In this document: positions 32,653-34,252 of the stretch, piece after piece
Numbering within the stretch: position 1 is the first letter of the stretch
Layout of the letters: each line of letters opens with the position of its first letter
Origin: a virus
Strand: one strand, 5' to 3'
Virus record (IMG/VR): IMGVR_UViG_3300007735_000804
Coordinates: 1-64,000 of that record
DNA length: 64,000 nt
The notes under the pieces: generated by a model
What the model saw: the letters and a program-made list of their open reading frames with translations, nothing else
What the model was told of the DNA's origin: nothing
Databases searched by the model: none
Translations under genes and position numbers: made by a program

Positions 32653-33090
32653 CTATTTTTCAGTAAATGAACGCAACATCCAAATGTATTTTCCGTGTGC
32701 TTCGTTTAGATCATCAAGAAGATTAATCGTTCCTCTTGACTTTTGCTCTTCCGCTTCAACAGCAGCAGCATCAAACATAGCAACTATTTTTTTATGATCC
32801 TCAAGAAGATCACGAATCATTTCCATTGAAGAAATGTTAGTCTTTGCTTCAGAAACCCCAGAAACTTCCAATACTCGTGAAAGAGAACTGATAGGTTTAA
32901 TACCTAAGAATCTCATATGTTCTGATAATCTATCAATCTCTTCCTGAATAGTAAGATATTGCTCCCCAAACAAATCATGAATCTGTTTAAAGTCTTCCCC
33001 TACAACATGCCAATGATAAACCCAAGTTTTCTGAAAGAGTAAAAAGAGCGATGCTTGCGTATCACTCAGAAGTTTATATAGAGATTCCAT
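32653..33090 (-). CDS. Dps-like miniferritin
   Basis: Protein of 145 residues with the four-helix Dps plan. The ferroxidase signature is HWHVVGEDFKQIH (H26, H38), then D53 and E57 in EEIDRLSEHMRFLG. The acidic residue usual four positions after the second His is Gly here, with Glu next. Dps dodecamers oxidise and store iron and may bind DNA, protecting it from peroxide. An exact TATAAATA late promoter is 19 bp upstream, so expression is probably late. It may act in the lysing host or with virion DNA. Confidence 0.85.
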   Translation of the reverse strand: MESLYKLLSDTQASLFLLFQKTWVYHWHVVGEDFKQIHDLFGEQYLTIQEEIDRLSEHMRFLGIKPISSLSRVLEVSGVSEAKTNISSMEMIRDLLEDHKKIVAMFDAAAVEAEEQKSRGTINLLDDLNEAHGKYIWMLRSFTEK

Positions 33091-33120: not shown

Positions 33121-33193
33121 TGCCCGATATAGGTTCCGCCCCTACCGATGCCTGCTTGTAAGGCAGGTCCCTTCACTAGCTGGGTCATCGGGC
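33121..33193 (-). tRNA. tRNA-Val-like (UAC) with non-canonical D and T loops
   Basis: Exactly 73 nt. Acceptor GCCCGAT/ATCGGGC and anticodon arm CCTGC-CTTACAA-GCAGG are perfect, and a 5-bp T-stem (GTAGG/CCTAT) is present. But the T-loop reads GGCGGAA in place of TTCRANY, and tertiary-contact bases at 8, 14, 15, 19, 54, 55 and 58 are all changed. The D-stem has only three pairs. It could be a tRNA pseudogene, a tRNA mimic, or an unusual functional tRNA. Confidence 0.6.
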
Positions 33194-33199
33194 AAAAAA

Positions 33200-33364
33200 T
33201 TAAAGTTTTTCCATCATATATTCTACAGTATTTGCTACATCATTCATAGCGTTCCGTAAATTTTCTCTTTGACCCGACTCTTGCCTTACGACTGGGCGAT
33301 GGTCGTCTGTAAGAGTCCAACGCCATTGATTCATATCCTTACAAAACCAGAGATTAATTTTCAT
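33200..33364 (-). CDS. Hypothetical protein, 54 residues
   Basis: Reads MKINLWFCKDMNQWRWTLTD, then DHRPVVRQESGQRENLRNAM and an amphipathic end. Aromatic-rich strand segment followed by a helix. Overlaps the 52-residue gene by 11 bp. Function unknown. Confidence 0.65.
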   Translation of the reverse strand: MKINLWFCKDMNQWRWTLTDDHRPVVRQESGQRENLRNAMNDVANTVEYMMEKL

Positions 33365-34177: not shown

Positions 34178-34223
34178 AAAGTGGGGGATTTCTCCCCCAA
34201 CACACTTCCTTCACACAAAAGAA

Positions 34224-34252
34224 AGTATAAGACATAATATGAATTATGTCAA
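34224..34252 (-). promoter_or_regulatory. Early promoter TTGACA-N17-TATACT for tRNA-Gly
   Basis: In the gap between tRNA-Thr and tRNA-Gly. Consensus -35 and a one-mismatch -10. Confidence 0.75.

Follow-up and report, generated by a model that had tools for sequence, protein, structure and literature searches.

The D/T-loop elbow of tRNA, formed by G18G19 with U54-Psi55-C56, is regarded, mitochondria excepted, as nearly universal, and its readers include modification enzymes. In tRNAs used outside the ribosome, such as the peptidoglycan tRNA-Gly of staphylococci, the T arm and D loop are altered. Suppressor tRNAs with alternative D/T contacts were reportedly selected in the laboratory by the Steinberg group, and the bacterial ribosome is said to accept such alternative elbow sets. 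The canonical tertiary geometry has been described (PMC7912444), and the elbow is also read by RNase P, T-boxes and the L1 stalk of the ribosome (PMC4810234). The closest precedent for the locus described below is bacterial tRNA-Pyl, in which G8 accompanies an unusual D/T contact (PMC7609411). Metazoan mitochondrial tRNAs with a lost elbow, which lack G18G19 and TPsiC, are functional (PMC7609411, PMC4810234).

The window analyzed here is a 64,000-nt stretch (positions 1 to 64,000) of the IMG/VR record IMGVR_UViG_3300007735_000804, a 213-kb viral contig in which ARAGORN detected 13 tRNAs. On its minus strand (33193 to 33121), between two co-oriented genes, lies a 73-nt element which, split by structural part, reads GCCCGAT GA CCC AGCUAGUGAA GGG A in the 5' part and CCUGC CUUACAA GCAGG CAUCG GUAGG GGCGGAA CCUAU AUCGGGC A in the 3' part (Table 1). 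The complete cloverleaf was the minimum-free-energy fold (−28.1 kcal/mol for a 74-nt stretch), comprising a 7-bp acceptor stem, a CCC/GGG D stem enclosing the loop AGCUAGUGAA, a 5-bp anticodon stem with the loop CUUACAA (U33, UAC and A37), a 5-nt variable region, and a 5-bp T stem with the loop GGCGGAA. This fold agrees with an earlier sequence-only reading, which had described a tRNA-Val(UAC)-like element with perfect acceptor and anticodon arms and a T stem of intact length. The plus strand was rejected as the functional strand, its fold being slightly weaker and all eight ordinary tRNAs of the surrounding 30.5-34.7 kb cluster being on the minus strand. A self-cleaving RNA or riboswitch was also rejected, as the element had no match to any Rfam family at E ≤ 10. 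ARAGORN, which found ten other tRNAs in the window, did not find the element, and the Rfam tRNA model RF00005 did not report it at E ≤ 10; the same model gave no match to the family copies, introduced below, at loci L024, L044, L117, L180, L248, L261 and L283. The search for an ordinary tRNA-Val with ARAGORN was negative throughout the 213-kb record, and GUA and GUU make up most of the Val codons in the long ORFs of this phage.

Table 1. Coordinates in the window of the tRNA-Val(UAC)-like gene, its structural parts and the flanking ORFs
Feature	Position	Strand	Observation
Whole tRNA-Val(UAC)-like gene, non-canonical elbow	33121..33193	-	73 nt including A73, CCA not encoded; cloverleaf fold
Acceptor stem 5' half, G1-U7 = GCCCGAT	33187..33193	-	all 7 pairs changed on both sides in the 63-member alignment
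G8 A9, G8 for canonical U8	33185..33186	-	G8 in 63/63, A9 in 62/63 aligned members
D arm CCC-AGCUAGUGAA-GGG: A13 G14 C15 ... A-G (proposed A18 G19) ... A21 A22	33169..33184	-	sequence, covariation
Anticodon arm CCUGC CUUACAA GCAGG	33151..33167	-	sequence; U33 in 62/63, A37 in 63/63 aligned members
Anticodon UAC (Val)	33158..33160	-	sequence; no ordinary tRNA-Val elsewhere in the 213-kb record
Variable region CAUCG, last base G48	33146..33150	-	G48 in 152/152 copies listed
T arm GUAGG-GGCGGAA-CCUAU	33129..33145	-	T-loop R54 G55 C56 R57 K58 W59 A60 for UUCRANY
Acceptor stem 3' half AUCGGGC and discriminator A73	33121..33128	-	A73 in all Val copies listed
Context: upstream 54-aa ORF	33200..33364	-	conserved in S-SRM01
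Context: downstream 145-aa ORF (Dps-like)	32653..33090	-	conserved in S-SRM01

The non-canonical bases listed in the sequence-only reading were present as described at G8 (normally U8), G14 (A14) and C15 (R15) and, in the T-loop GGCGGAA, at G54, G55 and G58 (normally U54, U55 and A58), while G48 (normally Y48) was a further such base absent from that list. Position 19, which had also been listed, counts as non-canonical only under length-based numbering of the D-loop; with the A-G of GCUAGUGA assigned to 18-19, both G19 and C56 are retained and A18 replaces G18. Measured against canonical tRNA, the element has a 7/3-4/5/5 cloverleaf with compensatory changes, a 7-nt anticodon loop with U33 and a purine at 37, and a discriminator suited to the anticodon (152/152 among the copies listed). 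Of the T-loop feature U54 U55 C56 R57 A58 it retains C56 and R57 alone, and it has A-G for G18 G19, G8.G14 for U8.A14 and C15/G48 for R15-Y48. Because the cloverleaf, anticodon and discriminator are those of a tRNA but the TPsiC, GG, U8.A14 and R15-Y48 features are lacking, the element is filed, on its sequence, in an alternative-elbow tRNA class and apart from ordinary tRNA-Val.

Canonical tRNA-Val(UAC), such as that in the corresponding slot of Synechococcus phage S-SRM01, shares with the element the cloverleaf, the U33/A37 loop, A73, the slot, the strand and the array context, but its U8, A14, R15, G18, Y48, U54, U55, A58 and Y60 are all replaced. The likeness to tRNA-Pyl, particularly the Desulfitobacterium form, consists of G8 for U8, the unusual D/T contact and the missing GG and TPsiC (PMC7609411), whereas the class has ordinary sense anticodons, a 5-bp anticodon stem and many isoacceptors; the CUA anticodon and 6-bp anticodon stem of tRNA-Pyl are replaced in the element by UAC and a 5-bp stem. 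In contrast to the mitochondrial tRNAs, the class gains a new conserved base set, keeps full-length stems and would be used by bacterial ribosomes and enzymes. It also differs from the Steinberg-group suppressors, which are artificial, in being natural. A viral tRNA-like structure of the TYMV type, a 3'-terminal pseudoknotted acceptor of an RNA genome, is not matched by the element, which is an internal gene of a DNA phage contig with a plain acceptor stem.

By blastn, five other Synechococcus phages (S-N03, MA10, MA01, ME01 and MC09) were each found to carry a copy of 83.6% identity that had not been annotated. The exact 17-base D arm matched 29 stretches of IMG/VR viral contigs, and all 29 proved to be copies of the element. 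These split into Val(UAC) and Ile(GAU) types with common D and T loops and with different, fully compensated acceptor stems. A related D-arm search of cellular genomes yielded a copy in 1 of 78 stretches, and the other 77 matches failed the cloverleaf. It was this comparison (29/29 viral versus 1/78 cellular), and not the fold energy alone, from which the element was deduced not to be due to chance, the fold energy being modest (z of approximately −1.8 to −2.2). Wider patterns and a covariance model added Asn(GUU), Cys(GCA), His(GUG), Glu(UUC) and Met(CAU) types, so that the same form, which the sequence-only reading had proposed to seek in other phages, was found in a structure-checked total of at least 152 copies on 145 fetched loci. 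The family covariance model R2 scored the element at 83.1 bits (E = 8.5e-22). The class signature is G8, C15, A-G replacing G18-G19, G48 and a T-loop RGCRNWA; since the loci were fetched by D- and T-loop patterns, the invariance of the loops is partly imposed by this selection, and related phages are not independent.

Several candidates were dropped. Chance pattern matches (L035, L039, L040, L047, L050, L051, L053, L060-L063 and L237) failed the cloverleaf by eye or structure check; weak model matches of 29-45 bits (L011:4774, L038:4828, L167:3605, L157:9982, L285 and others) were ordinary tRNAs or looser relatives; and a match in Acinetobacter phage DLP3, having a T-loop AUCGUUA with GG and no matching acceptor, was not a class member. 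When the CC-N D-stem class was scanned for anticodons having a pyrimidine at 34 and a non-A base at 35, no real member emerged, and blastn of the Cys and Ile copies against named phages gave no match.

Among the copies listed there were at least seven isoacceptors, namely Asn (GUU/G73), Val (UAC/A73), Ile (GAU/A73), Cys (GCA/U73), His (GUG/C73), Met (CAU/A73) and Glu (UUC/A73), with at least 76, 47, 13, 11, 2, 2 and 1 copies, respectively. The discriminators expected from the identity-element rules for bacterial tRNAs (PMC9976931) agreed with the anticodon in every copy listed (152/152). The ordinary tRNAs of the same loci had discriminators of G for Asn, U for Cys, A for Val and Ile, mostly C for His and mostly A for Glu (A73 in 13 of 14, like the odd Glu copy). 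In the His copy of L117, G-1 was visible together with C73, while the Met copies had an A1.A72 mismatch as in initiators and encoded CCA, as did some copies of the class. For the element itself, A73 is a bacterial Val identity base (PMC9976931); the minor Val identity pairs G3-C70 and U4-A69 are absent, the acceptor having C3-G70 and C4-G69.

The cloverleaf was further supported by covariation. For 18 distinct sequences in a padded alignment made without fitting to the structure, the value was 0.670 compared to 0.197 when shuffled, and 63 model-aligned, structure-fitted sequences gave 0.835 compared to 0.186, with 96.7% of cells paired. The D stem co-varied as CCC/GGG, CCG/CGG, CCA/TGG, GAC/GTC, GAG/CTC and GGA/TCC. 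These data strongly support the earlier view that stems were kept while loops changed and that this is not random decay. The D-loop consensus AGCWAGNGAA was present in all 63 aligned members, as were G55, C56 and A60, which were partly fixed by the search patterns. U33 and A37 (Table 1) were outside the patterns that built the alignment, and G48 was never in any search pattern.

The nature of the elbow was deduced from a scan of the fetched loci for strict cloverleafs with any 7-nt T-loop, which gave 428 distinct sequences. A D-loop GG was present in 379 of 384 U55 cloverleafs versus 5 of 39 G55 cloverleafs and, with redundancy reduced and the odd class removed, in 255 of 260 versus 4 of 16. 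The G55 tRNAs outside the class, which include Pro with C1-G72, Lys, Thr, Gln and the Ile of cyanobacterial arrays, nearly all have A-G at the usual G18-G19 site. The alternative elbow is supported because these other G55 tRNAs of the same arrays also have A-G where the U55 tRNAs have G-G. Bases 54 and 58 were found to switch together, each of the 21 strict class members having either G.G or A.U. In the simplest model, A-G within GCWAGNGA represents A18-G19, G19-C56 would be kept and A18.G55 would replace G18.U55, although within the class, where these bases are invariant, A18.G55 is not separable from a G14C15-G55C56 pairing or from the C15-G20 pair drawn by RNAfold. C15 with G48 would be a reversed Levitt pair. 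Separately, some otherwise ordinary phage tRNAs (L012:2170, L166:390 and similar) have a T-loop UUU with a D-loop G-A, in which G19-C56 has become A19-U56 with both sides changed.

The ordinary tRNA nearest to a copy was at a median distance of 99 nt and, among the copies listed, shared its strand in 117 of 117 cases. Replacement was counted over those distinct array configurations, among the loci listed, in which four or more ordinary tRNAs were present, with Fisher p values that are not corrected for phage kinship. Ordinary Asn occurred in 3 of 57 arrays with odd Asn versus 17 of 32 without (p 4e-7), ordinary Val in 0 of 23 with odd Val versus 32 of 66 without (p 5e-6), and ordinary Ile in 0 of 11 with odd Ile versus 41 of 78 without (p 6e-4). 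One locus (L018) had 22 ordinary tRNAs with no Ile among them and carried an odd Ile, and another (L011) had 21 with no Val or Asn and carried both an odd Val and an odd Asn. In S-SRM01 an ordinary tRNA-Val(UAC) occupies the slot of the window's element, with both flanking genes and junctions conserved. An ordinary tRNA-Val in relatives had been named as grounds for refutation, and it was indeed found in this one relative; because the odd form is conserved in dozens of other phages, the slot reads instead as the replacement of one apparently working tRNA by another.

The element is considered likely to be a functional tRNA-Val(UAC) gene belonging to an alternative-elbow tRNA class spread by phages. 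The sequences themselves establish the class, its covariation, its identity bases, its substitution for ordinary tRNAs in arrays and the coupling of D and T loops, and its members are taken to be working tRNAs because there are at least seven isoacceptors with matching discriminators and because they replace the same isoacceptor in phage arrays. From these sequence patterns we infer that the odd tRNAs are transcribed, charged and used on the ribosome, what their exact tertiary pairs are and that they confer an advantage, as follows. The gene would be cotranscribed with its neighbors, and the RNA would be matured by host enzymes, with CCA added. The acceptor stem, discriminator and anticodon are those of a normal, chargeable elongator tRNA, combined with a coordinated replacement set (G8, C15 with G48, A18-G19 facing G55-C56, and G.G or A.U at 54.58). 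The L shape would be held by G19-C56 and by A18.G55 in place of G18.Psi55, without the usually modified bases s4U8, m5U54 and Psi55. Charged by ValRS, the tRNA would be used at GUA and perhaps GUU and GUG codons, and would take over from the ordinary tRNA-Val the supply of Val-tRNA for phage genes, in which GUA and GUU codons abound. The advantage, probable but speculative, may be independence from host elbow modification or escape from host enzymes that read the elbow.

A tRNA mimic or decoy, as entertained in the sequence-only reading, would soak up host tRNA enzymes or anticodon nucleases and take no part in translation. The identity bases and anticodon loop are intact while the elbow (the part read by RNase P, T-boxes and the L1 stalk; PMC4810234) is changed, and a decoy aimed at synthetases would also keep the aaRS identity bases, which is a caveat to the tRNA reading. 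A decoy, however, need not substitute for a missing tRNA, whereas the odd tRNAs replace the ordinary isoacceptor in arrays; this, the at least seven isoacceptors, the His copy with G-1, the CCA encoded in some copies and the 1-72 mismatch of the Met copy make a decoy an unlikely explanation. A charged tRNA used outside the ribosome, whose altered elbow would bar EF-Tu and the ribosome as in the staphylococcal peptidoglycan tRNA-Gly, accords with the altered T arm and D loop of such tRNAs, but it is rendered very improbable by the range of seven amino acids, with an initiator-like mismatch in a Met copy, and by the position within ordinary phage tRNA sets. The processing or punctuation signal of the earlier reading, a tRNA shape for cutting phage transcripts, is similarly hard to credit: the element does lie between two co-oriented genes and cloverleafs do recruit RNase P, but such a signal would not require the anticodon to be conserved, the discriminator to match or A37 to be present, nor would it require mutual exclusion with the same ordinary isoacceptor. 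Together, the isoacceptors, matching discriminators and replacement of ordinary tRNAs indicate that neither mimic, decoy nor processing signal is the best reading. A decaying pseudogene, which the ordinary tRNA-Val in the S-SRM01 slot might suggest, is already contradicted by the covariation, with the same loop changes in at least 152 copies and compensatory changes in all stems, and is exceedingly improbable.

The hosts of the copies were nearly all phages or viral contigs (cyanophages, including Kyanoviridae isolates, and many IMG/VR contigs). Microcystis phage Mwe-JY26 carries an unannotated odd Asn inside a 12-tRNA array, and the His copy of L117 lies in a bacterial tRNA array whose other ORFs were not phage-like by eye. 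The exact class was absent from 292 cyanobacterial genomes at the threshold used. Seven of these (L286-L292, match at approximately 1501-1573 in each) carry an Ile(GAU) gene with A73 and the T-loop GGCAGUA, mostly inside long tRNA arrays in which ARAGORN found no other Ile, and the same gene is carried by plasmids of Nostoc, Tolypothrix and Calothrix. This gene has a related T-loop but a GAAAAGYGA-like D-loop and mostly A8, and is assigned as a looser relative and not as a member of the class. The likeness of the phage arrays to the long cyanobacterial ones, such as the trn operon of Anabaena, which is induced by translational stress (PMC10272220), consists in such arrays and plasmids holding this Ile(GAU) with its related T-loop.

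Other RNAs were observed in these surroundings. A Cys(GCA)/U73 tRNA with the T-loop AGCGUUA (L293:1501-1572), within an 11-tRNA array of a bacterial genome, has a D arm that pairs through as GAGCAAG/CUUGCUC. Two adjoining G55 tRNAs on the minus strand of a phage contig (L248, approximately 289-442) are the class Glu(UUC) and a His(GUG)/C73 with a different D-loop. An odd Met(CAU) with A1.A72 and encoded CCA (L261:1631-1704) is the only tRNA detected on its phage contig, which carries terminase-like and portal-like ORFs. Phage arrays with odd Ile contain ARAGORN tRNAs with the anticodon UCA, labeled SeC (L007:3807-3882 and L031:7690-7767), possibly opal suppressors. A tmRNA-like gene is present on phage contigs with odd tRNA-Val (L015:12294-12588 and L028:2036-2337), and an abiF RNA (RF03085, 53.8 bits, above gathering) lies directly upstream of a phage tRNA array (L024:8344-8380). 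The tRNA-Gly/tRNA-Thr gap of the window (34178-34252) contains strong hairpins (GGGGGAGAAAUCCCCC) after a promoter-like TTGACA, and the corresponding gap of L024 (7248-7318) contains a cloverleaf-like RNA whose anticodon stem is shortened and whose T-loop has 8 nt.

Within the papers open to search, a part of the literature only, no earlier description of the class was found. More tentatively, the class may represent a second self-consistent elbow code (A18-G19/G55-C56, G8 and C15-G48) in phages and mobile tRNA arrays, covering at least seven isoacceptors, which possibly spread by freeing tRNAs from host elbow modification or from elbow-reading enzymes or defenses and so gave phages a private tRNA supply. 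If the tRNA class is real, phage tRNA counts are too low, since standard finders miss such genes. A natural bacterial-type family would then have swapped the whole contact set with amino-acid identity kept, implying that the elbow code can be changed as a unit, and it would allow a direct test of whether each elbow-reading step is indispensable.
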